A DNA stretch of 16,393 nt from Thermoplasmata archaeon (GTDB lineage: Archaea > Thermoplasmatota > Thermoplasmata > Thermoplasmatales > Thermoplasmataceae): positions 1-16,393 of the forward strand of contig JAJZXP010000009.1 in NCBI GenBank assembly GCA_021806345.1, given 5' to 3'. Position numbers and translations under genes: made by a program. How positions within the stretch are numbered: the first letter of the stretch is position 1; each line of letters opens with the position of its first letter. This document shows positions 1-16,393 of the stretch, piece after piece. The notes below the pieces were generated by a model. The model was not told where the DNA came from, did no database searches, and saw nothing but the letters and a program-made list of their open reading frames with translations.

Positions 1-1
1 G

Positions 2-742
2 CCAGTTGTCAGGTCTGCATGGGGAATGAACAATTCTGACCAGCTGATCAAGGATATACTCTGTGCATTCAGATTCCATGGTGGACTGGTAATGCTCGCA
101 AAGGACAACAATGAAACAATTGGGATACAGTTTAGCTTTCCAGGATACAAAAATGGAAGGAGGTATCTCTATTCACACATGACCGGCGTTCTTGAAGGAA
201 AGAAATATGGGGGAGTTGGAAGGCAATTAAAGGAAAAACAGAGGCAGTGGGCAATGGAAAATGATTACGACCTCATTGCATGGACTTTTGATCCGTTGAT
301 GAACCTGAATGCAACGTTCAACATTCACAAACTTGGGGCAATATCAAGGACATATCTTAGGGATTTTTACGGAGAAATGGAGGACACTTTGAATTTCGGA
401 ATGCCCACTGATCGTTTCGTCGCAGAATGGTACGTGAACAAAAAGGAACAGGCAAGACCAAAGGTTTCCGCAGGCACATTCTCTTTTGAGGAGGTGGGAA
501 ATCTAGATGAATCTGCGATCCCAGATGATCTGTATCTTAAAATTCCTGATAATTACCTGGAAATGAAGAAAAGAGATCCTGAAAAGGCGATGGATCAGAG
601 ATTAAAAAGTAGGAATATCTTTGAGAATCTATTCAGCAAAGGATACATAGTTTCAGATTTCTCAAAGGAACTCAATGCATATTTTCTTGAGAAAAAACCA
701 GAATTAGGACTATCCTTAGGTCCAAACATTTTCAATCATTAA
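2..742 (+). CDS. GNAT acyltransferase of COG3375 type, 5'-partial (possible D-amino acid N-succinyltransferase)
   Basis: The reading frame is open to the left edge, and the residues before the first ATG (base 26) read VVRSAWG. This matches the VQRxVWG start of COG3375-type GNAT proteins, so that ATG is internal and the gene begins outside the window. Visible GNAT features are the acetyl-/acyl-CoA loop (GKKYGGVGRQLKEKQR, bases about 191-244), then AWTFDPLMNLNATFNIHKLG, a family-typical core, and the later PTDRFVAEWYV. The C-terminal third is less conserved. COG3375 proteins often sit beside N-succinylamino acid racemases. In Geobacillus such a GNAT is the succinyl-CoA:D-amino acid N-succinyltransferase of the D-to-L amino acid route. 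The two genes that follow are the racemase and an M20 hydrolase, so that role is the best inference here. The acyl donor cannot be read from sequence. The family call is firm; the substrate is inferred. Confidence 0.85.
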   Translation, partial: PVVRSAWGMNNSDQLIKDILCAFRFHGGLVMLAKDNNETIGIQFSFPGYKNGRRYLYSHMTGVLEGKKYGGVGRQLKEKQRQWAMENDYDLIAWTFDPLMNLNATFNIHKLGAISRTYLRDFYGEMEDTLNFGMPTDRFVAEWYVNKKEQARPKVSAGTFSFEEVGNLDESAIPDDLYLKIPDNYLEMKKRDPEKAMDQRLKSRNIFENLFSKGYIVSDFSKELNAYFLEKKPELGLSLGPNIFNH

Positions 743-770
743 TAAACTCGACTTAACAGGTTTAAAAACA

Positions 771-778
771 TATTTATC
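771..778 (+). promoter_or_regulatory. TATA box of the racemase/M20 unit
   Basis: TATTTATC preceded by A-rich sequence lies with its TTTAT core about 26-28 nt before the ATG at 801. That places the transcription start at or next to the start codon, so the mRNA should be leaderless. The racemase and M20 genes therefore appear to have their own promoter, separate from the GNAT gene. Confidence 0.6.
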
Positions 779-800
779 CCTTACTTATCTTAGCGAAATA

Positions 801-1889
801 ATGAATTTGAATTATAGAAGATTGAAGATGCCGATGAAGTCTCCATTCACAACAAGCTTTGGCACATCGTGGATTAAGGATGTTCTTGTGTTTCACTTAG
901 AGAATGATGGGATAAACGCGTATTCAGAATGCATCACCAATGAAAGTCCCTTCTACGGTCCGGAGGACAATTTCACATCATTGCACATCATAAAGGAATT
1001 CATTTCAGAACCGGTTAAAAAACTTCCCAGGCCCTGTGAATACAATGAAGCCATTGGATTTGTGAAGGGAAACAACATGGCAAAGGCGGCAATGGAAATG
1101 CTTCTTTTCGACTATCACTCCAAAGTCGAAAATATTGCACTGGATAGGTATCTTGATAAAGAGTCAAAAAACAGGGCAGATGTAGGGATATCCATAGGTA
1201 TGAATCAAATAGATGTCACACTGAAAAAGATTGAAGAGTCGGTCAAAGAGGGATACAAAAGAATCAAGGTAAAGATAAAGAAGGGAGAAGAACGTAACAT
1301 TCTTTCTTCCGTCAGGGACAGCTTTCCAGAAATTAAATTAAGTGCGGACGCAAACTGTGACTTCACCGAGAAAGATTTTGAATTGTTGACTTCACTGGAC
1401 CGATACGAATTGGAGTACCTGGAGCAGCCATTATATCATGATGATTTACTATTTCATTCAAAACTTTCAAAGAAGATGGAAACGCCAATCTGCCTGGACG
1501 AATCCATAGTCTCACCGAAACTCGCAGAAAATGCCTTGGAAATGGAAGCGTGCAATATCATCAACATTAAACCTGGAAGGGTGGGAGGACTGTTCAATTC
1601 AATGGAGATTGCCAGAATAACAAGAGAATTCGGTGGTCACTGTTGGGTTGGAGGCATGCTAGAAACTGGAATAGGAAGATCCTTCAATATAGCTTTTGCT
1701 TCTTCAAGTAGAGTGGATTTCCCAGGCGATAGTTCTCCAAATGACAGGTATTTCCAAAAGGACATAGTGACAAATCCATTCATAATGGAAAATGGCACAA
1801 TCGTACCGAACAAGCAGGATGGAATAGGTGTCACCATTGATAGAACTGCGCTTGAGAAGTATACAGTTGAAAAAGGAGTGATATTCTGA
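801..1889 (+). CDS. N-succinylamino acid racemase (NSAR/OSBS group, enolase superfamily)
   Basis: This 362-residue protein has the full enolase-superfamily set of the NSAR/o-succinylbenzoate synthase group. The KxK motif is K156-V-K158 in RIKVKIKKG. The metal ligands are D183 (SADAN), E208 (LEYLEQP) and D233 (CLDES), and the second catalytic lysine is K257 (NIKPGRVGG). The late motif GGMLETGIGR (about 284-293) is characteristic of this group. K158 and K257 would act as the acid/base pair that moves the alpha proton of an N-succinyl amino acid. Many members are promiscuous for OSBS and NSAR. Here the neighbours are a GNAT acyltransferase and an M20 amidohydrolase, not menaquinone genes, so NSAR in D-to-L amino acid conversion is preferred. 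The ATG has a TATA box 26-28 nt upstream and fits a leaderless start. Its stop overlaps the probable start region of the next gene. Confidence 0.88.
   Translation: MNLNYRRLKMPMKSPFTTSFGTSWIKDVLVFHLENDGINAYSECITNESPFYGPEDNFTSLHIIKEFISEPVKKLPRPCEYNEAIGFVKGNNMAKAAMEMLLFDYHSKVENIALDRYLDKESKNRADVGISIGMNQIDVTLKKIEESVKEGYKRIKVKIKKGEERNILSSVRDSFPEIKLSADANCDFTEKDFELLTSLDRYELEYLEQPLYHDDLLFHSKLSKKMETPICLDESIVSPKLAENALEMEACNIINIKPGRVGGLFNSMEIARITREFGGHCWVGGMLETGIGRSFNIAFASSSRVDFPGDSSPNDRYFQKDIVTNPFIMENGTIVPNKQDGIGVTIDRTALEKYTVEKGVIF
1875..1882 (+). promoter_or_regulatory. Strong Shine-Dalgarno inside the end of the racemase gene
   Basis: GGAGTGAT is close to the perfect complement of the archaeal 16S 3' end. 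It sits 42 nt before the first ATG of the M20 gene, too far to serve it. It is well spaced for a non-ATG start at CTG 1886, which would overlap the racemase stop as CTGA, or at ATC 1889. The site therefore bears on where the M20 protein begins. Confidence 0.5.
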
Positions 1890-1924
1890 TCATACCCGAG
1901 TTCCTCAAGGAAAGCGAAAATGAA

Positions 1925-3004
1925 ATGCTTGAATTGACTGAGGAACTCGTTATGTTAGAGAGCCCGTCCAGGCACAAAGTTCTTCTCGACAAATTTGCCG
2001 AACATCTCATTTCAACATTGGAGAAGAGATTTAATTTTCTCCCGGAAAAAGTATTCAATGGTCCAGAGGGTAATGTTTTGAGATATATCTTTAACAAAGA
2101 AGGAAAGGATCAGGTTCTGATTGTGTGTCATTATGACACTGTTTTTCCAGAAGGAACTATTCATGAAATTCCATTCAGGGTTGATGGAGACAGGGCATTT
2201 GGACCCGGAGTATTTGACATGAAAGCCGGGATTGTTCAGGTACTCTATGCACTACACTACAAATTAAGTAAGGGAGAGTTAAAGAGCAGAGTATGTCTGC
2301 TGCTTACACCAGACGAGGAAGTGGGATCCAAATTCTCAAAGAAGATAATAGAGGAAGCGGCAGCTAGATCAAAATTCGCCATTATTACTGAACCGCCACT
2401 GGAAGGAAAGCTTAAAACTTCGAGGAAGGGAATATGTGACCTCAAAATCCATGTTAAGGGGAAGTCTGTACATGCAGCCCTGGATCCAGAAAAAGGAATT
2501 AATGCAATAACAGAGGCTGTGGATTACTTGAACCTTATAGACGAACAGAGTGAAATTTTCAAGAACAAGCTGATTGTAAACCCTGGGGTGATAAGAGGGG
2601 GAACAAGACCTAATGTGGTTCCAGATCAATGCGATCTGGAGATTGATATAAGGTACACAGAGGAAAAGGATTTAGAGAATCTAATTGAAACATTGAGAAA
2701 GAAAAAACACGTAAAAGAGGGAACCAAAGTAGAATTCAATATGGATGTAAGACCACCAATGAAAAGAGATGAAAAAACAATTAAAATCTTTTCAGAATTG
2801 AAAAAAAATGCAACAAATCAGGGACTGATACTGGAAGAAACGGAAGCTTCCGGTGCAAGCGATGGAAATCTCTGCTCTCTTTTTTGTCCCGTTCTCGATG
2901 GAATGGGTGCCATAGGTGAGGGTGCACATTCAAAAGAAGAATTTGTTTTAATTAAAAAAATGCCAGAAAGAGCAACTCTTATCTCTCTGGCTCTGGATCT
3001 TTAA
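1925..3004 (+). CDS. M20 family metallopeptidase (probable N-succinyl-L-amino acid desuccinylase)
   Basis: The 359-residue reading from the first ATG shows the complete dinuclear zinc site of M20/CPG2/ArgE-DapE enzymes: H69-x-D71 (CHYDTVFPEG), bridging D98 (GVFDMKAG), general base E131 with ligand E132 (TPDEEVGS), E156 (ITEPP) and H335 (GEGAHSKEEF). GKSVHAALDPEKG and RGGTRPNVVPD mark the dimerisation domain. The frame stays open upstream through IIPEFLKESENE, which resembles a normal M20 N-terminal helix. No ATG, GTG or TTG lies there, only CTG/ATC/ATA behind a strong Shine-Dalgarno at 1875-1882, so the true start may be non-ATG at 1886-1889. The gene directly follows the racemase, which supports hydrolysis of N-succinyl-L-amino acids as the last step of D-to-L conversion. 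A general dipeptidase or carboxypeptidase role is the alternative. Confidence 0.85.
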   Translation: MLELTEELVMLESPSRHKVLLDKFAEHLISTLEKRFNFLPEKVFNGPEGNVLRYIFNKEGKDQVLIVCHYDTVFPEGTIHEIPFRVDGDRAFGPGVFDMKAGIVQVLYALHYKLSKGELKSRVCLLLTPDEEVGSKFSKKIIEEAAARSKFAIITEPPLEGKLKTSRKGICDLKIHVKGKSVHAALDPEKGINAITEAVDYLNLIDEQSEIFKNKLIVNPGVIRGGTRPNVVPDQCDLEIDIRYTEEKDLENLIETLRKKKHVKEGTKVEFNMDVRPPMKRDEKTIKIFSELKKNATNQGLILEETEASGASDGNLCSLFCPVLDGMGAIGEGAHSKEEFVLIKKMPERATLISLALDL

Positions 3005-3008
3005 AAAT

Positions 3009-6000
3009 TTAAGATTTTGGAGTTTTCGGTTTTCTCATTACAAGCACAACTGCTCCAACAACCAACGCTGCAGCAACAACTCCTAACACTACGTAAAGAT
3101 AGGTGTTACTACTGGATGCAGGCACAGGTTTACCCTTTTCCGTAACTGTGAAATTCACCGTTACAGTATAGGAAGCTACTGAACTGCTTGATTCACTTGC
3201 CTTTGCAACAAGAGACTCATTTTGCAATGTGGTTGTTCCAGACGAGGCATTTCCAACTTTAAATGAAAACACTGCCATTCCAGAGGAGTTTGTTGTCATT
3301 GAGACTGCGCTGCTTGAGTAGTTCAAACCAACAAGGACAGCTGAAGTTATATCCACACTTGCGCCACTGACCGCACTTCCATTTTCCGTAACTGTAAATG
3401 TCACGGTTCCTGTTTGTCCGGTTGTATAACTGGTGCTTCCGACTGCATATGTCATATACAGTGCTGGATTAATCAGGAATACATTGGTGTAAGTTGTTCC
3501 AGCCCCCGTTTGGTTTTGGCCACCTACTGTAACGACCGCAGTTATATTCACTTCCTGGTAGAATATAGGCATTACCGCCCCACTTGAACTGTAGGTCTGC
3601 ATTATCTGTGCTAGAGCGTTGGATACGCTGAAACTGAATGTTCCGTTCTTTCCAGTTGATGCATTAAATGTATAAGACTTGCTTGATAAACTTCCCACCA
3701 TTCCGGTCATTACAATTGTAATGTTAGCATCGTGAACTGCGCTTCCAGTTGTGTTGGCTACACTGTAACTGATCGAACCGGTATTGCCTGTATAAAGGTG
3801 TGATTTCCCAGTATATTTTGCCGAGATAGAAAGGTGATTCTTCTCATTAGTATTGATAAGTTCTATGTTCAGATAAGTAGAGGTTGTTTTAGTGTGCACC
3901 TCACTGGAAGGTGGATTAACCGTTGCAGTTATGTTCACCTCCTCACTGGGTAGGTTAATGATTTTATTATTTTTCAAAGTTTGGAGCAATTGGTTCAGGC
4001 CTGCAAATACCTCGTACTTCCATGTAGCTTGACCTGCAGCATTTGTTGTCAATTGATTTGAGGTCACATTGATTATACCCTTAGCAATTGAAGATACTGA
4101 AATACCTATCGTGGCACCCTGGACTGGCAATCCTGACGTTGTATTTAGTACAGTATACACTATGCTTCCTGTGTTACCTGCCGTCTGTACTAGGGAACCG
4201 GTAAAATTCTGCTCAATCTTCATACCATAGTTATAACTGATAGTCTTGGATGATGCAATCTTATGCACTTCCAGTAGAGTGAAATAAACACTGAACAAAG
4301 AACTAGACTGCGTAGTGGTGAAGTTGGCAAATTGGTTCGTCTGGAATGCATCCATAACTGTTGTGTATCCTATATTGATCAGAGTAGCCTCTTCAGCTAT
4401 TATTGTTTGTATTTCCCCGGATATCTTGGTCGCCTGTGAGAATGAGTCGGAAGCCAAAAGCTCATTTGAGAGGTTTGTAAGTAACAAAGTTACCTGCTTG
4501 CCAGTGAGGTGGACTCCGTTGTATGTAAGTGATGTATATGGTCCAAGTGTACAGCCAAATGCGAAATAGGCTGGTGCATCATTTACGAAAAGTGCGCATA
4601 GTATTGCTGGATCTGCTGCCTCTGTTCCCTGCCCGTATATTGCAACCTGATAATCGTTCGCTTTGCCAATGACTGAATAGTAAATATTTGCGAACATTGT
4701 TGTGTATGCCTCCTCAACTATGGTAGTTTTCACACCAAGATGAGCCCAGCCCTGACTGATTTCAGTTGCAACTTCCACATCGCACGGAGTTTCACTACCT
4801 GGAGCGATCTGGATCTGAATCGTGATCGGTTTTCCATTGTAATTGAGAACACCACTTATATTCTGCATCCCTGGAATGCTGTTGATCAATTGCCTTGCCT
4901 TAACCAGGTTGTAACTGTATTGGGGCGTTGAAGAATTGTACCATAATATATTACATGGGGGTACTGTGTTTGACGTAACAGTCAGCAATCCATCGTAAAC
5001 TGTACCATCAATTGTCTGATATGGTGTTGCATAGCTGAGAGCCTGTCTGAACGCTGTTATATTCAGTGGAGTATAGTTCTCATTTATCCTTACTGCGCAG
5101 AAGACCTGTGATGGAGCAGTATAAATATATGCTCCCGGGGTACCTTTCACGAGTGAGAGGAATGTTGGGGTTACCGGCAGCATGTCCAATTGTCCCTTAG
5201 TAAATGCAGCCACCATCGAAGATTGTGACGCAAAGTAAGGTTGATAAAATTCGTATATCTTTGGAGTGAACTGTCTTAATCCACTGCTTACATTGGCATA
5301 TTGAGCAAAGAAATGTGGATTTACGTAGAATTTGTCCAAGTGGTTAGGATTTATTTCTCCATTTGGCATTCCATATCCGTTATTTACCATAAATGGACCA
5401 TTACCTACTAAACCTGGAACACTGCCTGTTGCAATATTCCATCCCAAATTCCATCCTAAATATCCATTCCCCGAACTAATTCCAGGTGTGCAGTTATACA
5501 ATTTTGCGGAACTTGTGAAGTCGTGGTGCACCCATATGTGATATGGCAATATGTAGGATTCCAAAGAGCTTGTCTGTAAAAGCAATGTCGGTTTGGAAAC
5601 ATACAGTTTTACTGAAAGATTTCCGTTAGGAACTACATTTACGACACCTGGCCATCCTCCCATTCCTGCTTCCAGTCTCCAGGATAGGGCAACATCAGCT
5701 GACTGCAAATAGTATTTTTTCATCGTTGTTGTTGAGAAACTCTTGTAGGTGTGAGTGGTCAAATTGCCTTTATAGTAAAACTGGGTTGTGTTTGAGAAAG
5801 TGTATGTTTGAGAGGCATTTGCTGCGCTCCAGTCAGTCCACTGCACATATGGTCTCAAATTTATTGTGTAGACATATGAGTAGTTTACCATGGAATTTGT
5901 TTCAATATCAAAGGTCTTGTTATTTGTTGTTACGTGGGCCAATTTGTATCCAGTTGCCAGCCAAGGTACTATTTGGCCATTCGGCAACTGATAGTACAAA

Positions 6001-6314
6001 CTTCCGTAAACCAACTTGATAATAAACAAATCACCAAAGGTGTTCGCAGTGAATGTGTTCAAATCACCAATAGTACAGTCCAGCCCGCATTGAAAAGTTC
6101 CATTGGTATATCCCGGTTCCTGCATGGTCGTTGTCGGCATTTGCCACGGGGTACTGCTGGAACTATATGCCTGAGCTGCAGTTTCTGCGTTCAAGCCTAA
6201 ATTACTAGTCTCATTCGTAGAGCTAATAGGTGATGCGTTCTGAAATACCACGAAAGCGGTACCCACCATCAATAGAACTACAAATATTGCTAAAACTATT
6301 TTCTTATTTTCCAT
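3009..6314 (-). CDS. ABC-type peptide-binding protein, family 5, with three Ig-like repeats and two membrane anchors
   Basis: At 1101 residues this is about twice the usual length of an Opp/Dpp-type solute-binding protein. An N-terminal hydrophobic helix (about 5-24) is followed by a Ser/Thr-rich linker. The family-5 binding domain runs roughly 60-690, with GDLNTFTANTFGDLFIIKLVYGSL as the usual entry region and TAFRQALSYATPYQTI in the middle. Three Ig-like repeats (about 706-1058) and a C-terminal transmembrane helix (about 1072-1093) with a basic tail, RKPKTPKS, complete it. Many N-x-S/T sequons suggest heavy surface glycosylation. The family binds oligopeptides, dipeptides or sometimes sugars outside the cell for an ABC importer. 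No permease or ATPase gene is in the window. Because the surrounding genes degrade muropeptides, a murein-peptide ligand is plausible but unproven. The stop lies 4 nt from the convergent M20 stop. Confidence 0.88.
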   Translation of the reverse strand: MENKKIVLAIFVVLLMVGTAFVVFQNASPISSTNETSNLGLNAETAAQAYSSSSTPWQMPTTTMQEPGYTNGTFQCGLDCTIGDLNTFTANTFGDLFIIKLVYGSLYYQLPNGQIVPWLATGYKLAHVTTNNKTFDIETNSMVNYSYVYTINLRPYVQWTDWSAANASQTYTFSNTTQFYYKGNLTTHTYKSFSTTTMKKYYLQSADVALSWRLEAGMGGWPGVVNVVPNGNLSVKLYVSKPTLLLQTSSLESYILPYHIWVHHDFTSSAKLYNCTPGISSGNGYLGWNLGWNIATGSVPGLVGNGPFMVNNGYGMPNGEINPNHLDKFYVNPHFFAQYANVSSGLRQFTPKIYEFYQPYFASQSSMVAAFTKGQLDMLPVTPTFLSLVKGTPGAYIYTAPSQVFCAVRINENYTPLNITAFRQALSYATPYQTIDGTVYDGLLTVTSNTVPPCNILWYNSSTPQYSYNLVKARQLINSIPGMQNISGVLNYNGKPITIQIQIAPGSETPCDVEVATEISQGWAHLGVKTTIVEEAYTTMFANIYYSVIGKANDYQVAIYGQGTEAADPAILCALFVNDAPAYFAFGCTLGPYTSLTYNGVHLTGKQVTLLLTNLSNELLASDSFSQATKISGEIQTIIAEEATLINIGYTTVMDAFQTNQFANFTTTQSSSLFSVYFTLLEVHKIASSKTISYNYGMKIEQNFTGSLVQTAGNTGSIVYTVLNTTSGLPVQGATIGISVSSIAKGIINVTSNQLTTNAAGQATWKYEVFAGLNQLLQTLKNNKIINLPSEEVNITATVNPPSSEVHTKTTSTYLNIELINTNEKNHLSISAKYTGKSHLYTGNTGSISYSVANTTGSAVHDANITIVMTGMVGSLSSKSYTFNASTGKNGTFSFSVSNALAQIMQTYSSSGAVMPIFYQEVNITAVVTVGGQNQTGAGTTYTNVFLINPALYMTYAVGSTSYTTGQTGTVTFTVTENGSAVSGASVDITSAVLVGLNYSSSAVSMTTNSSGMAVFSFKVGNASSGTTTLQNESLVAKASESSSSVASYTVTVNFTVTEKGKPVPASSSNTYLYVVLGVVAAALVVGAVVLVMRKPKTPKS
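3141..4199 (-). repeat. Three tandem Ig-like repeats in the binding protein
   Basis: Residues about 706-1058 hold three diverged units of roughly 110-125 residues. They begin with QTAGNTGSIVYTV (about 710), YTGNTGSISYSV (about 841) and YTTGQTGTVTFTV (about 963). Each continues with a 'VxGAxIxI' turn, a 'TxxxGxAxxxF' strand and, at the end, an EVNITA-like or VTVNFTV strand. The pattern fits invasin/Big-1-like beta sandwiches. They probably form a stalk that holds the binding domain away from the membrane. Confidence 0.75.
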
Positions 6315-6665
6315 CCCCCTGCAATCAGTTCAATGATTTAAAACTCTTTTTGTCAATGCAAAAAAATTAAATACTAAAAAGAATCTAAAATTAACCTATT
6401 ATAAGGTACAAAGTACAATCTAAGAGTTGTTTATTAGTAAAAAATTATAGTAGTTAATTATTTTTAGGAACTTGGTACGTTTTATCGTAGCACTAGGGTA
6501 TATAATTTCAAAAATATATTTTATATAGCCTTTTTTCGGATATCAGTCATCAACCTTTAGATAAATCAGTTACAGTCTATTGTTCTTATAAGGCAAATCC
6601 ATATGATTCAGATCTATTTTAAGTTAGATGAGAATAATAAACCCGGTTTCATTAACTTAAAAAGT
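6315..6665. other. Divergent, very AT-rich intergenic region
   Basis: This stretch separates the divergent binding-protein and CocE genes and holds no convincing gene. It contains the binding-protein TATA box (6336-6342), several other TATA-like tracts (about 6500-6536, 6585-6592, 6631-6639) and a small dyad, GTACAAAGTAC, at 6406-6416 that could be an operator. Bases 6603-6665 are an in-frame extension of the CocE gene that I consider untranslated. No tRNA-like or strongly structured RNA was seen. Confidence 0.5.
6336..6342 (-). promoter_or_regulatory. TATA box of the peptide-binding protein
   Basis: On the minus strand TTTAAAT begins 28 nt before the ATG (6314), inside an A/T-rich stretch. 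This predicts a leaderless transcript. A run of five G directly before the ATG is too close to act as a normal Shine-Dalgarno site. Confidence 0.6.
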
Positions 6666-8351: not shown

Positions 8352-9179
8352 ATGGAGACTACAGAGGATAACAATCTGTTCTCGAGAGAAATTTCAGGCT
8401 GGAGCACAGGTAAAATCATCGAATTTATCCACACATCTGACTACAGGGCGTTTGAAGCAGTCGGTTGGGCATTGGAAAATATTGCAGAAGCAACTGAGAA
8501 GATTTATGAAAGAATAACTGAGGGTGGAAGGGTAATTTACGTAGGTGCTGGAACAAGCGGAAGACTTGCTGCACAGGATGTGGCAGAATTAAGGCCAACC
8601 TATGGAATAGGATCAGATATTTTTGATTACGTTATGGCGGGAGGTAACGATGCAATCCTCCACTCAATAGAAGGGGCCGAAGATGACAGGGAAGAGGCAG
8701 TCAGAATACTGAAGGAGGAGAAGCACCTTAAAAAAAATGATATAGTGTTCGGAATAAGCGCATCAGGATCAACACCATTTGTTATTTCGTCATTAGAATA
8801 TGGAAAGAAATTGGGGGCCCTCACAGTATCGTTAACAAACAACAGGGACAAACCGGTTTCAAAAATTTCAGATGTCAGCATTTGCTGTCTAACAGGTGCG
8901 GAAATAATACAGGGTTCTACCAGAATGAAAGCAGGAACATGCCAAAAAATGGTTCTTGGAGCAATATCGACAACAATAGCAATCAAGCTTGGTCTGACCT
9001 ATAAGAATACAATGTCAAACATGGGTGCATGGTACAATGAAAAACTTCGCAAAAGGGCGCAAAACATGCTAATCAGAGAGTTTGGTCTTGAGCAGTCAAA
9101 CGCTATCCAGCTTCTGGAGGAGAATATGTATGACATGAATAGGGTAATGGCAATGCTCGAAAGAGAGAGGAAAGAATAA
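8352..9179 (+). CDS. murQ: N-acetylmuramic acid 6-phosphate etherase
   Basis: The protein (275 residues) is a SIS-fold MurQ, which cleaves the D-lactyl ether of MurNAc-6-phosphate to give GlcNAc-6-phosphate and D-lactate. The phosphosugar loop GAGTSGRL (65-72) is intact. E79 (AELRPTYG) and E110 (IEGAEDDRE) match the catalytic glutamates known as E83 and E114 in Escherichia coli MurQ. SGSTPFV and the signature GSTRMKAGTCQKMVL are also present. It is about 25 residues shorter than E. coli MurQ because the C-terminal tail that follows the last helix is missing; the catalytic part looks whole. It heads a two-gene unit with the DD-peptidase, 17 nt downstream. MurNAc-6-P is known only from peptidoglycan turnover, so this gene is the strongest pointer to murein use. 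No sugar kinase to make MurNAc-6-P is in the window. Confidence 0.93.
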   Translation: METTEDNNLFSREISGWSTGKIIEFIHTSDYRAFEAVGWALENIAEATEKIYERITEGGRVIYVGAGTSGRLAAQDVAELRPTYGIGSDIFDYVMAGGNDAILHSIEGAEDDREEAVRILKEEKHLKKNDIVFGISASGSTPFVISSLEYGKKLGALTVSLTNNRDKPVSKISDVSICCLTGAEIIQGSTRMKAGTCQKMVLGAISTTIAIKLGLTYKNTMSNMGAWYNEKLRKRAQNMLIREFGLEQSNAIQLLEENMYDMNRVMAMLERERKE

Positions 9180-9196: not shown

Positions 9197-10279
9197 ATGG
9201 CAGGAATAATATCTACATGCTTCAGGGACAGTGATGGAAACATTTTACAGTCCAGTAACGAAACTATGTCCTTGCTTCCAGCTTCAAACATGAAAGTAGT
9301 TTCAGGATATTCAGCATACAAAATACTCGGGCGTGAGTTCAATTTTGTCACGAAATTTTCTAACACTGGAGATAGGCTGTACGTATCAGGAGATCCATGC
9401 CCACTGTTTTCTTTGAGCGATATGCGGAATATTCTAAGAAAGAAAGAAAATAGGGATATAACTGGTATAACCTTCGATGATCAGGTGCTGGATAATTTAC
9501 CCTATGGTAGTGGATGGGAGATCGAAGATTCTCCATATTGTTACCAAACGTGCATAGTTCCCTACTCTGTAAACGAAGGGTGCATTCCCAGTAAGAAAAT
9601 CAGACACTCAAAATTAAAAGATCAGGTAAATCACAAAGATGACTCAATGAGTGTGAACAACCAGTATAGACATTTTACAATGGCCATGAGCAATATAATT
9701 GGACATAAGTTAGATTTTAAAATTGGGCACCTGAACACAGCGGAATATAACAGTACTTATGAGAAAAAATTGACAGACATATTACATCATATAGAGGAAT
9801 TCAGCTGCAATTTTTCAATCGAGGTTGTAACCAAATACCTTTCACACCATGTGAGCGGGGGGAGGGGAAACTGGAAGGAGTCCACAAAAATTATTGAAAA
9901 TCTGATGAAAGAACTAAATTTGGATATGGAAGGCATTAGAATAGTTGATGGAAGTGGCCTTTCAAGGCAAAATCTTCTCACAACATCATTCCTTTCGGAT
10001 TTAATATTCAGGATAAAGCAGGGTAAAAATAAGGAATTTATTGATCTATTGCCGTCCAAGGGAGAAGGGACTCTTAAAAACAGGCTCAATAAAATGGACG
10101 ATTTAAAAATAAGGGCAAAAACAGGATCCTTCCAGTATTGTTCTTCACTGACCGGATATATTAGTTCACTTGATGTTTCATTCAGTATAATACTGAATAA
10201 TTTCAATGAAAGTGATCAGCAATTGAGGGAGAGAATTGATGATATTTTGATGAATTTTGTTTCTTCCAGAATGAGGTAA
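9197..10279 (+). CDS. dacB: Minimal S13 D-Ala-D-Ala carboxypeptidase/endopeptidase (PBP4/DacB-like)
   Basis: All three penicillin-binding active-site motifs are present in the right order. The SxxK is S30-N-M-K33 in LLPASNMKVV, the SxN is S203-C-N205 in EEFSCNFSIE, and the KTG is K308-T-G310 in RAKTGSF. VDGSGLSRQNLL (250-261) is the usual S13 segment between the second and third motifs. In bacteria these enzymes remove terminal D-Ala or cut D-Ala-DAP cross-links in the periplasm. This one is about 360 residues, against about 480 for E. coli PBP4. It begins only 29 residues before the nucleophile and has no signal peptide. Seven cysteines also suit a reducing cytoplasm. It is co-transcribed with murQ, so trimming of imported muropeptides is the best inference. 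The start is supported by GAGGGG at 9187-9192. The stop abuts the convergent lysA stop with no spacer. A beta-lactamase-like esterase is a less likely alternative. Confidence 0.82.
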   Translation: MAGIISTCFRDSDGNILQSSNETMSLLPASNMKVVSGYSAYKILGREFNFVTKFSNTGDRLYVSGDPCPLFSLSDMRNILRKKENRDITGITFDDQVLDNLPYGSGWEIEDSPYCYQTCIVPYSVNEGCIPSKKIRHSKLKDQVNHKDDSMSVNNQYRHFTMAMSNIIGHKLDFKIGHLNTAEYNSTYEKKLTDILHHIEEFSCNFSIEVVTKYLSHHVSGGRGNWKESTKIIENLMKELNLDMEGIRIVDGSGLSRQNLLTTSFLSDLIFRIKQGKNKEFIDLLPSKGEGTLKNRLNKMDDLKIRAKTGSFQYCSSLTGYISSLDVSFSIILNNFNESDQQLRERIDDILMNFVSSRMR

Positions 10280-11545
10280 TCATACCACATTCTGTAAAAG
10301 ATCTTCAACAGTCTCTCTTTTCCTAACGAGGTAAGCTTTACCATCAGAAATTAACACTTCGGAGGATCTCAGATTTCCGTTGAAATTCATGCTCATAGCA
10401 TAGCCATAGGCTCCGGCATTCAAGACTGCAATCAGATCATCAATTTTCACATCGGGAATTGATCTCCAATTCACGATCACATCGGTATTTTCGCATACCT
10501 GACCCACTATTTTTCCTTCCCTCTCAGCACCTCCATGATCCGCGAGGACAACAATAGGATGGTAAGCTCCATACAGTGCGGGCCTGAGGAGTGTTGTCAT
10601 ACCCAGATCCGTGCCTATGAACCTCTTTCCATATTCCTTCACATTTGTCACTCTACCAATCAATATTGTGGAGTCTGCTACCAAATATCTTCCGGGTTCC
10701 AGAAGGATTTTTGGAAGCTTTCCATGGTAGCCCTCAAAATTCTTGTTCATCGAATTCCACACACCCTGGGCTACTTTTTTTAAGTCAAGCTCTTTTTCTC
10801 CAGACCTGTAGGGAACGCCAAATCCCCCTCCAAGATCTACATATTCAAATTCAATTCCCAATTCATTTGATATTTTCCTTACAAGAGCAAATAGCTTTCC
10901 TGCCACAAAGCCAAAATAATCTGCATCCAGAACATTGGATCCCGTCATCATATGAATGCCGAATTTCTTTGCGCCCTGATCTCTTGCAACACTGTAAGCG
11001 TCAAGCGATCTTTCTGATGGTATTCCAAATTTCGCGTCAGGTCCGGCTGTAGTAGTTCCCTGAAATTCTCCTTTTCCGACACCCGGGTTAATTCTAAACG
11101 AGACTGTGTGGGGTAACTTTCTCCCCAACAGGTTCATCTGATTAATATCATCAAAATTTATTGCCAGACCATAATCAGACGCTTGCGAAAGAGAATTTTT
11201 GTCAAGATTGTTTGGTGTCATTACTATTTTTTCCTTTGCAACTCCGCCTCTTAGGGCTATTTCATACTCTGTCAGATTAGAGACATCTGCCCCGGCACCC
11301 ATTCTTGAAAGAACTTCAACTATTCTTGGATTTGAATTTGCCTTGATTGCATACTTAATTTCAAAGTTCCAGTTAAACGATAAAAAAGCTTCCCTTATAT
11401 TTTCAAATCTTTCCTGAATTCTCCGTTGAGATGTGACATAAAGTGGAGTGCCATACCTTTCTGCCAGTTCGTGTAAATTAACTCCGTCCATAGTCCACTC
11501 TTTTTTATTCTTAAGAATAACAGATTCAATTTGAGATTCAGGCAT
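10280..11545 (-). CDS. lysA: Diaminopimelate decarboxylase
   Basis: Fold-type III PLP enzyme converting meso-diaminopimelate to L-lysine and CO2. Counting from the ATG at 11545 (421 residues), the PLP lysine is K68 in EIKYAIKANSNP. H198 lies in GIHMMTGSN, the glycine loop is VDLGGGFGVP, and LEPGRYLV is present. The substrate cysteine is C351 in VCENTDVI and the PLP tyrosine region is GAYGYAMSMNFN. The last motif usually reads SNYN, so F388 replaces the common Tyr. A TTG nine bases upstream is in frame, but a TATA box at 11563-11569 points to the ATG as a leaderless start. No other DAP or lysine biosynthesis gene is nearby. Among murein-degrading genes, a catabolic role on DAP freed from stem peptides is the likely one. 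A different but related amino acid decarboxylase cannot be excluded. Confidence 0.85.
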   Translation of the reverse strand: MPESQIESVILKNKKEWTMDGVNLHELAERYGTPLYVTSQRRIQERFENIREAFLSFNWNFEIKYAIKANSNPRIVEVLSRMGAGADVSNLTEYEIALRGGVAKEKIVMTPNNLDKNSLSQASDYGLAINFDDINQMNLLGRKLPHTVSFRINPGVGKGEFQGTTTAGPDAKFGIPSERSLDAYSVARDQGAKKFGIHMMTGSNVLDADYFGFVAGKLFALVRKISNELGIEFEYVDLGGGFGVPYRSGEKELDLKKVAQGVWNSMNKNFEGYHGKLPKILLEPGRYLVADSTILIGRVTNVKEYGKRFIGTDLGMTTLLRPALYGAYHPIVVLADHGGAEREGKIVGQVCENTDVIVNWRSIPDVKIDDLIAVLNAGAYGYAMSMNFNGNLRSSEVLISDGKAYLVRKRETVEDLLQNVV

Positions 11546-11562
11546 GATCTCCAATAGGACAA

Positions 11563-11698: not shown

Positions 11699-12709
11699 CT
11701 ACTGCTCAATAGTTTTTAATTTCAATCTTCTTTTCATCCACTCAGTCCTGTTCAATAAGGCCATTTTGGATACTTTTGCATCCGGAACCACGCCGTACCA
11801 GCTGTGATATGCTCCGGGATATACGTGAATTTCAACCGGTATACCGTGTTTCATTAGCATATGGGCATAATCAATGTCCTCATCTCTGAATACCTCCTGT
11901 CCACCCACCTCCACGTAAGCTTCTGGAAGATTACTCAGATTGCTAGCCCTTGAAGCAGACGCGTAATATGAAACTCCGTCTTTTCCTGCTATTTCTCCAA
12001 GGAGAGCATACCACCCAAGTTCGTTGAGTTCCCTTGGCCATGAGGGCCACGGTCCCGAACACATAAGACTTGATTCCGTGTTATTCCTGTCGTTCAACAT
12101 TGGCGCAATCAAGCACTGGAATATCAATTTAGGTCCACCCCTATCCCTGGCCATTAACGCGAGGGATGCAGCAAGGCCCCCGCCTGCGCTTTCTCCCATA
12201 AGACCAATTCTGTTGGCATCTATTCCCAGATCATCTGCATGATCTGCAACCCACTGGAGACCATCGTAACAATCATTGATTCCATTCGGATAAGGGTACT
12301 CTGGGGCCAATCTATATTCAACATCCACGACGACTATTCCAAAATCCTTTACCAATTTAGACATCTCCAATTTACCGTATTCAACGCTCCCAACAATCAT
12401 CCCCCCTCCGTGAATATGGTAGATACACGGTAAATTTTTGTATTCAGAATTAGGAGAATAGATATTCACTTTAATTGGCATGCTGGAATTCTTTGTGTTT
12501 ATCTCCACAAATCTGAGGGATACTCCCGGATCCAGTTTAACATTTTTCATATTGTCAGGAGTTAAATCAATAAGCGTTTTCTTTAAAACCTTAATCTGGT
12601 CATTTTTATTTTTGTAATCTTCAACTATTTTCAAGATTTCTTTCATTCTTTCAGTACCGGCTTTCACAGAGTTTCTCAATTCCTCATCAAAATCAGATTC
12701 CAAAATCAT
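11699..12709 (-). CDS. HSL-family alpha/beta hydrolase (esterase)
   Basis: From the ATG at 12709 the product is about 336 residues. It has the hormone-sensitive-lipase signatures: oxyanion HGGG in IYHIHGGGMIVGS, nucleophile serine in GLMGESAGGG, and a histidine in VYPGAYHSW. The acid position reads GGQEVFRDED, where Glu replaces the Asp of many HSL esterases; this variant is seen in part of the family. EYRLAPEYPYP is a further family motif. These enzymes hydrolyse short acyl esters. The substrate here is unknown; removal of acetyl or other ester groups from wall fragments is only a guess from context. A GTG at 12751 would add 14 residues that look non-homologous, so the ATG is preferred. It is transcribed in the same direction as lysA but separated by 153 nt and probably has its own promoter. 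Confidence 0.8.
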   Translation of the reverse strand: MILESDFDEELRNSVKAGTERMKEILKIVEDYKNKNDQIKVLKKTLIDLTPDNMKNVKLDPGVSLRFVEINTKNSSMPIKVNIYSPNSEYKNLPCIYHIHGGGMIVGSVEYGKLEMSKLVKDFGIVVVDVEYRLAPEYPYPNGINDCYDGLQWVADHADDLGIDANRIGLMGESAGGGLAASLALMARDRGGPKLIFQCLIAPMLNDRNNTESSLMCSGPWPSWPRELNELGWYALLGEIAGKDGVSYYASASRASNLSNLPEAYVEVGGQEVFRDEDIDYAHMLMKHGIPVEIHVYPGAYHSWYGVVPDAKVSKMALLNRTEWMKRRLKLKTIEQ

Positions 12710-12882
12710 AAATCTCCAACAGTAAGCATTTCTAAGGATTAATCGTTTCACTTTCTGTGAATATCAACACACTCACGGTGCTTCTTTAATGAAAATTCGG
12801 GCCAAGTCCTGAATTGCTCCTCAGGAAAACACTGATTTTAGGATCGATCCGGTATATAAACTAACGCCCTCAACTAAAACTG

Positions 12883-12910: not shown

Positions 12911-13630
12911 ATGAAATGTGTGGGAATGAGTACTGTTGACCTAAGGAGCGAACCTAAATTTAGAAGTGAAAGGTCTTCACAGCTTATTTTTGGAGAAGAG
13001 GTCGAAATAATTGGAGAAGAAGGAGAATACTGTCGTGTAATTGGAGTAGACCGGGTAAAGGGATATGTGATGAAAAATCTTATAGTAGACTCTTCGAAAA
13101 AGATTTACAAGTTGAGAAAAAACCACAGGTCAGGCAACATGGTGCTTCCCTTTGGTTCATACGTGAACGAAGATGATGCAACTGAACATAATATTCCCGA
13201 AAATTTACTTGTGAAAATTTCAAAAAATTTCAATCCTTGGGAACTCGCAAAGGAATTCATGGGAGTTCCATATCTATGGGGAGGCACCTCAGACCTCGGG
13301 TACGATTGTTCAGGTTTTACTCAGAGGTTATTCAGATTTTCCAACACAGAAATTCCAAGAAACTCAGGATGGCAGCGCGAAGCTTCAAAGACTGTTGAAT
13401 CATTTAATGAAGCTCAGGCGGGTGATCTGGTTTTTTATCACGGACATGTCACATTCTATATTGGAAACATGACCATCATACATTCAAATGTCCATAATGG
13501 AGGAGTATCTTACACCCAATTGAACGATAACAGTGAATATTCCAAATCACTGGATGGATCATTCGAGAAAATTGGAAGACTGGAGATAGGTAAGAAGTAT
13601 GATTTGCCATTTAAAAAAGATTCAGATTAG
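12911..13630 (+). CDS. SH3-NlpC/P60 endopeptidase (YkfC-like gamma-D-glutamyl-L-diamino acid peptidase)
   Basis: The 239-residue protein starts with an SH3b-like domain (about 1-60: VDLRSEPKFRSERSSQLIFG then YVMKNLIVD). A second SH3-like segment follows (about 61-105). The NlpC/P60 papain-fold domain has nucleophile C133 in GYDCSGFTQ, H179 in YHGHVTFYIG and a third polar residue at H191 (IIHSN). GVPYLWGGTSDLGYDCSGF is the classic family entry motif. YkfC-type enzymes of this architecture cut the gamma-D-Glu-DAP (or Lys) bond of free stem peptides and release L-Ala-D-Glu. The matching L-Ala-D/L-Glu epimerase is encoded about 1.4 kb downstream. No signal peptide or membrane segment is seen, so it probably acts on imported peptides. 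It leads an operon with nagZ (43-nt gap). Short second SH3 unit and precise peptide preference are unverified. Confidence 0.88.
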   Translation: MKCVGMSTVDLRSEPKFRSERSSQLIFGEEVEIIGEEGEYCRVIGVDRVKGYVMKNLIVDSSKKIYKLRKNHRSGNMVLPFGSYVNEDDATEHNIPENLLVKISKNFNPWELAKEFMGVPYLWGGTSDLGYDCSGFTQRLFRFSNTEIPRNSGWQREASKTVESFNEAQAGDLVFYHGHVTFYIGNMTIIHSNVHNGGVSYTQLNDNSEYSKSLDGSFEKIGRLEIGKKYDLPFKKDSD

Positions 13631-13662
13631 GGGAATAATAGGGGAGTTACAAGTTAAAAAAA

Positions 13663-13668
13663 GGTGAT
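13663..13668 (+). promoter_or_regulatory. Shine-Dalgarno of nagZ
   Basis: GGTGAT, 5 nt before ATG 13674, decides the start and supports translation from a shared mRNA with the NlpC/P60 gene. Confidence 0.7.
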
Positions 13669-13673
13669 AAGAA

Positions 13674-15074
13674 ATGAGAAGCGGGTATTTTATTCAGACT
13701 GGAATGGGCGGTGTTGACAGTAAAGAGGAGGCTTTCAAGTTTATAAGGGAAATACTCCCTTTTTCCGTAATACTTTTTAGGTCGGATTTTCAGGGAGCAG
13801 AAGACCTTTCAAAGTTAGTGAAAGAAATCAGGAATATTTATGTAAAAGAAAAAGGAACAAATCCACCGGTCATCGCAATTGATCAGGAAGGCGGCAATGT
13901 TGTAAGAATTCCATGGATGGACTATAGCCCAAGTAACTATTTTCTAGGAATGGTCAATAACGAGAAATTAAGTTATTTTGCTGCTTCCCTGATGGGAAAA
14001 CAGCTTAAATCATTCGGAATTGAGTGGAATTTGGCTCCGGTACTTGATGTTCTCTACGGAGTAAATCCCGTTCTTCTGGAAAGAAGTTATGGCTTTGACG
14101 TTTCATCCATTGAAAAACATGGAATTTCAATGATCAAAGGTCTTATGGATTCCGGTGTTGCAAGCACTGCAAAACACTTTCCAGGCCACGGTGGAGTTAT
14201 GGAAGATTCTCACGAGGAGCTTCCTATAGATAAGAGAAGAATGGAAATTGTGATGAACGATGCTAAACCATTTAAGTCCGCCATAGAGTGTGGTGTGAGT
14301 TCCATTATGCTATCTCATATAATTTATAACGCCATCGACAAAGAATTTCCAGCATCAATATCACCAAAAGTCCAACTTCTGTTAAGAAAGGAAATGGGAT
14401 ATAACGGAGTGATACTGACAGACTCCATCAATATGAAGGCACTTTCCTCAAATTTTGACCTGGAGCAAATTGTCAAAAACAGCATAGGAAGCGGTGTTGA
14501 TATAATCGAGACAAACAGTTTAATTTCAGCAAGCTCGATTAATGACATAATTAGCGAGAGCAATTACAGTAATATGCAAATGAAGGCAGACAGGCTTGCA
14601 AGACTGATTCCTGAAATAAAAATCAAATACAATCCCCCCGTTGAAGTTCTAAACGCTTTCTCTACAATTCACAATAATGTTGTTAGATGGAAGGATCTAG
14701 ACCCGAATAGGCATTTTTTCCTGGTCTTTCTTGATCAAAAACCCGAAAGTCAGGTCAACGATGCCAAAAACACCGGAAAGGGAGTTTTGGAAAGGCTCAG
14801 GAGCATGAATCTGAATTTTGACCTTTTGGACTTTGAAAACATCGGGGAAAATATTGAGGGAGATCAATTTATATTTATAGGCAGAAATGAACATTTTAAG
14901 GATAGATTTTCCAAAATTAACAGGATGAATGACAAAAACAGTTGTATGTTCATATCCACCAGCATTCCTCAGGACACAGGTATCCTAAGTGAAAAAATGG
15001 GATATATCACTGCAGGCTCTTCCAAAACAGAGAATATTCTTGGGGCTATCTACAGAACTTTTCACTTTTTCTGA
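13674..15074 (+). CDS. nagZ: GH3 beta-N-acetylhexosaminidase (NagZ)
   Basis: This 466-residue glycoside hydrolase family 3 enzyme would remove GlcNAc from GlcNAc-MurNAc fragments. The NagZ signatures are AIDQEGGNVVR (68-78, substrate-binding Asp), STAKHFPGHGGVMEDSHEEL (164-183) and ILTDSINMKA (247-256). The second includes the Asp178-His180 acid/base dyad that is specific to NagZ rather than to GH3 glucosidases. In the third, D250 is the nucleophile. Residues about 340-466 form a second, weakly conserved alpha/beta domain like the two-domain Bacillus NagZ, but shorter. No signal peptide is present, unlike secreted Bacillus NagZ, so a cytoplasmic location is inferred. It follows the NlpC/P60 gene in one unit. 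Its last 13 nt overlap the convergent epimerase gene. The hexosaminidase call is strong; the muropeptide substrate follows from the dyad and context. Confidence 0.9.
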   Translation: MRSGYFIQTGMGGVDSKEEAFKFIREILPFSVILFRSDFQGAEDLSKLVKEIRNIYVKEKGTNPPVIAIDQEGGNVVRIPWMDYSPSNYFLGMVNNEKLSYFAASLMGKQLKSFGIEWNLAPVLDVLYGVNPVLLERSYGFDVSSIEKHGISMIKGLMDSGVASTAKHFPGHGGVMEDSHEELPIDKRRMEIVMNDAKPFKSAIECGVSSIMLSHIIYNAIDKEFPASISPKVQLLLRKEMGYNGVILTDSINMKALSSNFDLEQIVKNSIGSGVDIIETNSLISASSINDIISESNYSNMQMKADRLARLIPEIKIKYNPPVEVLNAFSTIHNNVVRWKDLDPNRHFFLVFLDQKPESQVNDAKNTGKGVLERLRSMNLNFDLLDFENIGENIEGDQFIFIGRNEHFKDRFSKINRMNDKNSCMFISTSIPQDTGILSEKMGYITAGSSKTENILGAIYRTFHFF

Positions 15075-16153
15075 GAGAATTCCCTGTCAACAAATGTTTT
15101 CTTAAGTTCGACACCCACTCCCGGGCAGTCGTGTGGATAGAGTGTTCCCTTCCTGAATTCAATACCTTTCTCAACGATATCTTCCTTTAAACTGCTGTAG
15201 CCGTCCAAATCTGCATATTTAACAGATGGTTTTGAAAGGGCAACTGCCAGCCCTGCGCTGTTCGCCAGTCTGGTTTCTACCATGCATCCTATCATTACTG
15301 GAACCCTGTAGGAGTAAGCAAGGTCAGCCATTTTTATTGAGTCGGTGATCCCTCCCGATTTCATCAATTTTATATTTATTCCATCTACAGACTCAGTCTG
15401 AAGCACGTTTAACACATCATCTGTTGTAAATATACTTTCATCCGCAAATATGGGAATATTCGATCTATCTCTAACAAATTTTAATCCACGTATATCCTGC
15501 ATGGGCACTGGCTGTTCCATAAACTCAATTTCAAATTTTTCAAGCTTCTTAGAAATCTCAACTGATTTTCTGGGTGTGTAAGACTGATTAAAATCTACAT
15601 AAATCATTGGCTTTTCCCCAACCACGTCTCTAACCACCTTGACTCTTTCAAGATCATCCTGGATTCCAAGTCCCATTTTTATTTTGAATATTTTAACCCC
15701 ATCAGACATAAGTTCTTCCGCCTGAGCCTTGGCTTTCTTAGAATCTACGAGGTCAACAGTGTATGAAGTGTCAATATGATCTTTATTATTTCCGAGTAAC
15801 TTTCGAACGCTTGTTTTTGCGCGCTTTCCTATTATGTCCCAAATAGCCTGATCTATCGCCATTCTGCTTGCCTTTGCTGACCTGCAGAGATTTTTCATGG
15901 TTATATTCAGGTTTTCCTGGGACTCATCCATTCCCTTAAGGGATTCCGAAAATATCCTTAACTCGCTTTCCAGTGATCCTATGGTGTCACCAGTTATGAA
16001 TGGAGTGGTAGTGGCTTCCCCGTATCCAACAATTCCATCATCTGCGGTAACTGAAACAATAAAACCCTCATAGGAATTGGTTGATCCAAGGGAAATTTTA
16101 AACGGCTTTTTCATTGGCAGTTCTATTTTTTTAAATTTTATACTCTCAATCAC
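15062..16153 (-). CDS. L-Ala-D/L-Glu (dipeptide) epimerase, enolase superfamily
   Basis: Dipeptide epimerase of 363 residues when read from a GTG at 16153. The KxK is K157-I-K159 (FKIKMG), the metal ligands are D187 (YVDFNQ), E213 (FMEQP) and D238 (FADES), and the second lysine is K262 in NIKLMKSGGI. D315-L-D317 (ADLDGY) is the DxD motif that binds the dipeptide amino group in L-Ala-D/L-Glu epimerases such as YkfB and YcjG. Together with MKSGG and GCMVE it separates this protein from the racemase at 801-1889. It would turn L-Ala-D-Glu released by the NlpC/P60 enzyme into L-Ala-L-Glu for ordinary peptidases. A TTG further upstream gives a longer frame with a hydrophobic, non-homologous lead. 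The GTG is preferred because a TATA box lies 28 nt upstream, which predicts a leaderless mRNA starting at that codon. Confidence 0.88.
   Translation of the reverse strand: MIESIKFKKIELPMKKPFKISLGSTNSYEGFIVSVTADDGIVGYGEATTTPFITGDTIGSLESELRIFSESLKGMDESQENLNITMKNLCRSAKASRMAIDQAIWDIIGKRAKTSVRKLLGNNKDHIDTSYTVDLVDSKKAKAQAEELMSDGVKIFKIKMGLGIQDDLERVKVVRDVVGEKPMIYVDFNQSYTPRKSVEISKKLEKFEIEFMEQPVPMQDIRGLKFVRDRSNIPIFADESIFTTDDVLNVLQTESVDGINIKLMKSGGITDSIKMADLAYSYRVPVMIGCMVETRLANSAGLAVALSKPSVKYADLDGYSSLKEDIVEKGIEFRKGTLYPHDCPGVGVELKKTFVDREFSQKK
15066..15070 (+). terminator. Possible oligo-T terminator at the end of nagZ
   Basis: A run of five T in a T-rich tail lies in the last codons of nagZ, within the overlap with the convergent epimerase gene. 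It is the only terminator-like sequence available there, so the assignment is weak. Confidence 0.25.
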
Positions 16154-16174
16154 GCTGTAAAATTGCAAACATGC

Positions 16175-16181
16175 ATATAAA
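16175..16181 (-). promoter_or_regulatory. TATA box of the dipeptide epimerase
   Basis: Minus-strand TTTATAT begins 28 nt before the GTG at 16153 and is the main reason for choosing that start. Confidence 0.6.
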
Positions 16182-16252
16182 TTAGCGGAACACCAAGTGA
16201 GCTTAATAAGATCCAGGTTATTTTTGCATTCTCCAATTAACAAAAGAAGTGA

Positions 16253-16290
16253 CACTGGGTGAATCATACTTAACAGGATAACAACCAGTG
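16253..16290. repeat. Inverted repeat upstream of the last gene
   Basis: CACTGG (16253-16258) and CCAGTG (16285-16290) form a 6-bp perfect dyad with a 26-nt spacer. The right arm ends directly before the A-rich element and TATA-like box of the gene at 16324, a position suited to a regulator. Confidence 0.3.
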
Positions 16291-16297
16291 AAAAGGA

Positions 16298-16303
16298 TTT
16301 ATG
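16298..16303 (+). promoter_or_regulatory. TATA-like box of the last gene
   Basis: TTTATG preceded by the purine-rich AAAAGGA (BRE-like) begins 26 nt before ATG 16324. The spacing matches the other leaderless genes of the window. Confidence 0.45.
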
Positions 16304-16323
16304 AAGGGAATGAATGAACCGCA

Positions 16324-16393
16324 ATGGTCACACTTGGTATTGAGAACATCAAAAATCTTGTTGCAGGGAATTCGAACAAGAAGGTGGGTATAA
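16324..16393 (+). CDS. 3'-truncated start of a probable DUF1343 exo-beta-N-acetylmuramidase (NamZ-like)
   Basis: Only 23 codons are inside the window, with no stop. The reading is MVTLGIENI...NKKVGI. It resembles the opening of DUF1343/NamZ proteins, where a 'xTGIExLL' segment is followed after about ten residues by 'GKRVGLITN'. NamZ removes non-reducing-end MurNAc from peptidoglycan. In Bacillus subtilis its gene (ybbC) lies next to nagZ and in the same cluster as murQ, and here nagZ and murQ are also close. The call rests on a short match plus context and could be wrong; the frame and a TATA-like box 26 nt upstream make it a real gene start. No signal peptide is visible in the first residues. 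Confidence 0.5.
   Translation, partial: MVTLGIENIKNLVAGNSNKKVGI

Follow-up and report, generated by a model that had tools for sequence, protein, structure and literature searches.

We analysed a stretch of 16,393 nucleotides (contig JAJZXP010000009.1, assembly GCA_021806345.1, labelled Thermoplasmata archaeon; hereafter the window), which very probably belongs to a gene cluster conserved among archaea, whose enzymes would break down bacterial cell-wall fragments intracellularly after import and pass their sugars and amino acids to metabolism; we infer enzyme activity, transport and growth from sequence. The original prediction had described a murein-catabolic cluster, and this core is supported: the window MurQ falls within a Thermoplasmata clade, gene neighbourhoods are conserved at 21 Thermoplasmata murQ loci, and FtsW/RodA, Mur ligase and DapF were not detected in 23 related MurQ carriers. 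The window comprises 12 genes of substantial length and, at its right-hand end, the truncated beginning of another:

2–742, + strand: GNAT-fold acyltransferase truncated at its 5′ end, putatively a D-amino-acid N-acyltransferase (AlphaFold2 model and Foldseek)
801–1889, + strand: N-acylamino-acid racemase/o-succinylbenzoate synthase-type enzyme of the enolase superfamily (TIGR01928; closest named solved structures are N-acylamino acid racemases)
1925–3004, + strand: M20 metallopeptidase/deacylase, putative N-acyl-L-amino-acid deacylase or dipeptidase (PF01546 78 bits, PF07687 77 bits)
3009–6314, − strand: oligopeptide-type extracellular binding protein, membrane anchored (PF00496 106 bits; hydrophobicity scan, N-terminal hydrophobic segment and a second one)
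6603–8300, + strand: S15/CocE-type hydrolase (TIGR00976 320 bits, cut-off 66; near murQ in 6/21 related loci)
8352–9179, + strand: MurQ, likely N-acetylmuramic acid (MurNAc) 6-phosphate etherase (NF003915 294 bits; structure matches; tree)
9197–10279, + strand: short-form serine peptidase of family S13, PBP4/DacB-like, without a hydrophobic N-terminus (PF02113 143 bits; motifs)
10280–11554, − strand: LysA, diaminopimelate decarboxylase (TIGR01048 359 bits, cut-off 298)
11699–12751, − strand: alpha/beta-hydrolase esterase, doubtful member of the system (PF07859 184 bits; outside the conserved neighbour families)
12911–13630, + strand: SH3 and NlpC/P60 cysteine peptidase, YkfC-like, predicted cytosolic (PF00877 80 bits, PF08239 31.3 bits; motifs)
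13674–15074, + strand: NagZ-type GH3 beta-N-acetylglucosaminidase extended at the C-terminus, predicted to be cytosolic (PF00933 187 bits; active-site motif)
15062–16153, − strand: dipeptide epimerase of L-Ala-D/L-Glu type, start reassigned to GTG 16153 (structure relatives, homologue starts)
16324–16393, + strand: NamZ-like exo-muramidase, first 23 codons, cut by the window end (translation compared by eye with N-termini of relatives)

The enzymes named in the original prediction (MurQ, NagZ, a DacB-like peptidase, an NlpC/P60 enzyme, LysA, an epimerase and a peptide-binding protein) are all present as long frames with family matches, and the active sites it called intact keep their catalytic motifs in MurQ, NagZ, the S13 peptidase and the NlpC/P60 protein; its gene list had missed the GNAT/racemase/M20 trio. 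The gene at 8352–9179 is likely a MurNAc-6-phosphate etherase by family scores and conserved glutamates: it exceeds the cut-offs of two subfamily models (NF003915, 294 bits against 168; NF009222, 269 against 255), MurQ structures align with it end to end, and Glu79 and Glu110, which we take to be the catalytic glutamates E83 and E114 of Escherichia coli, are invariant in 26 aligned homologues. NagZ carries the active-site motif KHFPGHG-x4-DSH, with KHFPGHGGVMEDSH at residue 167, and GH3 N-acetylglucosaminidases are among its structure matches. Similarly, the S13 peptidase retains SNMK, SVN and AKTG. The protein at 12911–13630 combines an SH3_3 domain (31.3 bits, cut-off 27) with an NlpC/P60 domain bearing DCSGF and GHV, the Cys-His architecture predicted for a YkfC-like cytosolic dipeptidyl peptidase, and dipeptidyl-peptidase VI structures are among its matches. 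The predicted YkfB-like epimerase is the gene at 15062–16153, closest among solved relatives to a dipeptide epimerase (3jva) and an L-Ala-D/L-Glu epimerase (1jpm). A TTG start at 16324 was rejected for this gene as too early; GTG 16153 agrees with homologues. The right-hand window end encodes MVTLGIENIKNLVAGNSNKKVGI; the 23 codons from 16324, proposed as a probable namZ start, resemble by eye the NamZ N-termini of relatives and are too short for a family test. Complete NamZ occurs in relatives (PF07075/PF20732, 219 and 97 bits in genome G176).

We determined the distribution of MurQ by a search of 400 genomes from the class of G001 (Thermoplasmata; E value 1e-15 or better), in place of a contig scan with A1 that kept 80 of 591 confirmed stretches, with mostly bacterial MurQ among the matches listed. 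MurQ was found in 23 of the 400 genomes. AnmK was found in 14, all of them MurQ carriers. NamZ was found in 20 genomes, and all of these except G293 carry MurQ (19); the hypergeometric probability of co-occurrence with MurQ, uncorrected for shared ancestry, was 3e-20 for AnmK and 1e-27 for NamZ. MurQ was also found in 21 of 300 genomes from the phylum to which Culexarchaeum belongs, and 17 murQ loci there contain NamZ (14), BadF-type kinase (15), AmiE-like S12 (8), AnmK (3) and NagZ-like GH3 (3).

Neighbourhoods were mapped at 21 Thermoplasmata murQ loci with a plain open reading frame caller and BLAST, and proteins were grouped into families, each named from one or few representatives (carriers G010 and G066 left out; several loci, 4.2 to 20.7 kb, end at contig ends; an overlap filter removed MurQ itself from the L192 map). 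Each locus had 2 to 13 of 15 scored families near murQ, and this clustering far exceeds a simple chance model. The families were S12/AmiE-like (19 loci), NagA (17), NamZ (16), NlpC/P60 (14), NagB-II/GlmS-isomerase-like (12), epimerase (11), NagZ (11), BadF-type kinase (11), OppB (10), S13 (8), AnmK (8), a surface NlpC/P60-like protein (8), S15 (6) and a GlcD/D-lactate-dehydrogenase-like flavin adenine dinucleotide (FAD) oxidase (4); full-length LysA was counted in 3, an undercount in that partial frames failed the length rule. Gene order and strand differ between loci while content persists, so that the conserved synteny for which the original prediction suggested searching was found as a conservation of gene content. 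In G176, the closest genome to the window, NagZ, NamZ, NagA, kinase, S12, NagB-II, AnmK, MurQ, S13, M55 D-aminopeptidase, NlpC/P60 and LysA lie within 20 kb. A probable Picrophilus locus holds kinase, NagB-II, NagA, MurQ, S13, LysA, NlpC/P60, the binding protein, S12 and NagZ; the epimerase and NamZ lie immediately outside it. The set is completed in relatives by AnmK, NagA, NagB-II, kinase, AmiE-like and transporter genes. An initial AnmK motif pattern matched none of 8 AnmK sequences, and 7 of the 8 N-termini read V/M-S/T-GTS-x-DG; S12 of L120 (a cut frame) is without SxTK, and NlpC/P60 of L131 is without the DCSG motif.

FtsW/RodA and Mur ligase were each found in 0/23 MurQ carriers (control: each found in 10/14 known genomes; with genome completeness not given, the absence is approximate). 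DapF was likewise found in 0/23. All 23 carriers have LysA; in 14 of them it is separated by 0.8–23 kb from murQ, the epimerase gene or namZ, and in two more (G314, G329) it shares a contig with the predicted surface-anchored enzyme described below. Because FtsW/RodA, Mur ligase and DapF are missing from the carriers and LysA is universal among them, the cluster is likely used to break down foreign murein and not to recycle an own wall.

In the proposed pathway, wall fragments would be cut extracellularly, in 14/23 relatives possibly by a surface-anchored NlpC/P60-like enzyme, and would enter via the peptide-binding protein and an Opp-type ATP-binding cassette transporter. In the cytosol, NagZ and NamZ would split the glycan, and in relatives an AmiE-like serine amidase would free the stem peptide and AnmK or a BadF-type kinase would phosphorylate muramic acid. 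MurQ would yield N-acetylglucosamine (GlcNAc)-6-phosphate and D-lactate, with NagA and NagB-II (in relatives) leading to glycolysis. The S13 and NlpC/P60 peptidases would trim the stem peptide, the epimerase would convert L-Ala-D-Glu to L-Ala-L-Glu, LysA would convert meso-diaminopimelate to lysine, and the GNAT/racemase/M20 trio may turn D-amino acids into L-forms.

Several observations weigh against this pathway. Strict equivalog cut-offs are missed by MurQ (TIGR00274, 245 versus 302), NagZ (PRK05337, 182 versus 207) and, narrowly, S13 (PBP4 model TIGR00666, 106.6 versus 107.8). The AmiE, kinase, NagA, NagB-II and transporter steps were found in relatives and not in the window. The surface enzyme scores below Pfam cut-offs, and its top 50 Foldseek hits match the PKD/Ig part and not NlpC/P60. 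The complete GNAT/racemase/M20 trio occurs in only 6/20 racemase loci, and TIGR01928, a model named for menaquinone synthesis, is over its cut-off in 23/23 carriers (the count covers carriers only); the 801–1889 gene may have a menaquinone role. Finally, DapB is present in 8/23 carriers, and in four of these 23 LysA is probably biosynthetic because lysA adjoins dapB; a salvage role for LysA therefore has the missing DapF on its side, yet DapB and this adjacency against it, with only the DapF and DapB routes scored.

Because none of the window enzymes has an N-terminal hydrophobic segment, they are probably cytosolic; only the binding protein has such a segment (hydrophobicity scan, not a signal-peptide predictor). 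The original prediction had the archaeon scavenging or preying on bacterial walls: scavenging is still the likely interpretation, whereas enzymes of this kind do not show predation. The predicted surface-anchored NlpC/P60-like enzyme is encoded in 14/23 carriers versus 0/57 other genomes. This enzyme, together with the placing of Thermoplasmatota among phyla rich in modular peptidoglycan hydrolases in the available part of PMC12352652, would fit a cluster used chiefly as weaponry for killing or lysing rival bacteria, a role demonstrated for peptidoglycan hydrolases of haloarchaea, with nutrition secondary. We consider that improbable: the secretion signal of a secreted antibacterial hydrolase appears to be missing from the window enzymes, and MurQ, AnmK, NagA, NagB-II, LysA and the epimerase act on small soluble products of no use in killing.

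Slightly less probable still is a cluster used chiefly for the salvage of GlcNAc and common peptides, in which the homologues of MurQ, NamZ and AnmK would have different sugars or acyl ethers as substrates. GH3, NagA, NagB-II, M20, S15 and Opp are families of wide substrate range, and the equivalog shortfalls of MurQ and NagZ point the same way; however, three muramic-acid-specific families co-occur almost perfectly, the catalytic glutamates of MurQ are invariant, and the epimerase, NlpC/P60 and LysA suit stem peptides.

Pseudomurein is not known to contain muramic acid, and would leave MurQ and NamZ without substrate. This, with FtsW/RodA and Mur ligase missing in 23/23 carriers, makes it very unlikely that the enzymes recycle a wall polymer made by these archaea themselves, although the same enzymes serve recycling in bacteria (PMC5061867, in part). 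A host making peptidoglycan, which such recycling presupposes, was not found among the relatives, a result that concerns them rather than the window's own genome.

The best MurQ relatives of the window are from Thermoplasmata and Picrophilus. In a 70-row tree (quick method; support by Shimodaira–Hasegawa-like approximate likelihood ratio test, SH-aLRT, no bootstrap), the window pairs with G176 (95), inside an archaeal group of 24 rows (94). Archaea were represented by 22 loci (L001, L003, L113–L132), P0043, P0105, the window and six second copies; the 39 bacterial rows were even-numbered loci of L004–L080 with MurQ frames of 231–419 residues (odd-numbered loci and L002 left out for size). MurQ of L003 (Culexarchaeum) was placed among bacteria. 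G026 is probably Picrophilus oshimae, because its MurQ is identical to P0043, which bears that name. The archaeal origin claimed in the original prediction is supported by this nesting, and the host is likely a relative of acid-loving Thermoplasmata archaea; this is likely and not proven, because the window holds no ribosomal RNA or ribosomal protein. That same lack is what a bacterial or chimeric contig has in its favour, the least probable alternative of all, given that MurQ lies within the Thermoplasmata group, that almost every named relative of the GNAT protein is from Thermoplasmata (one named bacterial metagenome-assembled genome stands at the bottom of the list), and that gene content and neighbourhoods agree with those of G176 and G069, both single-contig genomes. 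An S-layer is reported for Picrophilus spp. (PMC5155288).

Two further observations concern the MurQ tree. Six Thermoplasmata genomes (G380, G314, G058, G074, G010, G042; L107–L112) have a second MurQ, 35–39% identical to that of the window; these form one clade (100) among bacterial rows, beside Actinomycetota, and are interpreted as a separate acquisition. P0105, a MurQ under the label Conexivisphaerales, forms a tight group (99) with those of G224 and G242 from Thermoplasmata, and is read as a mislabelled bin or a recent transfer.

The first three genes of the window (2–742, 801–1889, 1925–3004) stand in a row, with M20 starting 35 bases past the racemase. The GNAT protein had no Pfam or NCBIfam match and one chance match only in a PDB sequence search; an AlphaFold2 model of P0121, 99% identical to it, reached a predicted local distance difference test score of 89.3, and its top Foldseek matches are GNAT acetyltransferases. 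The first gene is thus predicted to have a GNAT fold, and a D-amino-acid N-acyltransferase role is possible. The 801–1889 gene, the second enolase-superfamily gene of the window, was ruled out as a YkfB-like epimerase by its TIGR01928 score (366 bits, cut-off 200.65) and its match to N-acylamino-acid racemases. An acyltransferase, racemase and deacylase in this layout form a route of D-to-L amino-acid conversion; in Geobacillus, an operon of GNAT succinyltransferase, N-succinylamino-acid racemase and M20 desuccinylase converts D- to L-amino acids. The window trio has the same three families adjoining and by families and order appears to fit such an operon, with racemase and o-succinylbenzoate synthase indistinguishable; unlike the Geobacillus operon, it lies beside murein genes, is complete in only those 6/20 related loci, and has a putative substrate. 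Among the 20 racemase loci, an M20 relative was found in 7 and a GNAT relative in 7, and in two others an M20 enzyme of a different subfamily adjoins the racemase.

More tentatively, and with somewhat less than even confidence, we propose a dedicated murein-eating metabolism in archaea of two phyla. In Thermoplasmata, surface-anchored NlpC/P60-PKD enzymes of a new family would complete it by cutting walls outside, and diaminopimelate and D-amino acids would be its sources of lysine, L-alanine and L-glutamate. On this proposal, many archaeal "peptidoglycan hydrolases" without a signal would serve feeding and not attack.

We take ybbC of Bacillus subtilis to be namZ, and B. subtilis AmiE to belong to the PF00144 family. 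The archaeal cluster shares MurQ, NagZ and NamZ with the B. subtilis recycling cluster murQ-murR-murP-amiE-nagZ-ybbC (PMC5061867), and in relatives a serine hydrolase of PF00144 takes the position of AmiE. It differs in host relatives without FtsW/RodA or Mur ligase, in AnmK and BadF-type kinases instead of a phosphotransferase system, and in the inclusion of stem-peptide and lysine genes; NagZ and AmiE of B. subtilis are extracellular (PMC5061867, in the part available), whereas the window NagZ is predicted to be cytosolic. With E. coli muropeptide recycling (NagZ, LdcA, AmpD, AnmK, MurQ, YcjG/MpaA) it shares cytosolic NagZ, AnmK, MurQ and the L-Ala-D/L-Glu epimerase. The E. coli genes are scattered and their products re-enter the own wall, whereas the archaeal genes are clustered and no own wall synthesis was found in relatives.

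Bacterial-type wall-cutting enzymes are known in archaea, as modular peptidoglycan hydrolases in 175/3,706 archaeal genomes, with signal peptides on 32% of the proteins (Strock et al. 2025, PMC12352652), and as an Aciduliprofundum GH25 lysozyme (Metcalf et al. 2014, PMC4241558). In the accessible parts of both papers these are single secreted hydrolases studied as antibacterials, with scavenging named as an open possibility, whereas the present cluster would be a downstream, mainly cytosolic catabolic pathway. Cuniculiplasma is described as scavenging proteinaceous compounds and as having an incomplete route of lysine synthesis (PMC5155288); the strings "peptidoglycan", "murein" and "muram" were not found in the main text of that paper. 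The assembled archaeal pathway, suggested from the start to be undescribed, may indeed be so: no account was found in the literature searched (subscription papers and outside preprints not covered; for two of the searches, the best 20 of 457 and the best 20 of 1,029 matches). What would be new is the assembled pathway; each enzyme family is already known from bacterial recycling.

In the available part of PMC12352652, it is left open whether the peptidoglycan hydrolases of archaea are used for attack or for scavenging. A clustered downstream pathway with kinases, an etherase, a deacetylase, a deaminase and putative lysine salvage, in hosts without the tested wall-synthesis genes, points to nutrition, and the question becomes testable in cultured Picrophilus. 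If the pathway operates, acidophilic archaea would have an added source of carbon, nitrogen and lysine, and dead bacterial walls would have a new sink.

Other proteins recur around these genes. A GNAT acetyltransferase family of about 300 residues lies beside murQ/namZ in both archaeal groups (L121:7409-8302, L129 and L132; in the Culexarchaeum phylum, L193, L200, L201 and L206–L208). A class-II glutamine-amidotransferase-like (N-terminal nucleophile) protein with weak Pfam matches is near the cluster in 4 loci (L113:11534-12358; L114, L118, L126). The S15/CocE hydrolase of the window, of the family counted near murQ above, may act on stem peptides or acyl groups. The GlcD/D-lactate-dehydrogenase-like FAD oxidase of 4 loci and a CCG/4Fe-4S protein near murQ in 6 (L121:12905-14293, L114:624-1793) could oxidize the D-lactate released by MurQ.

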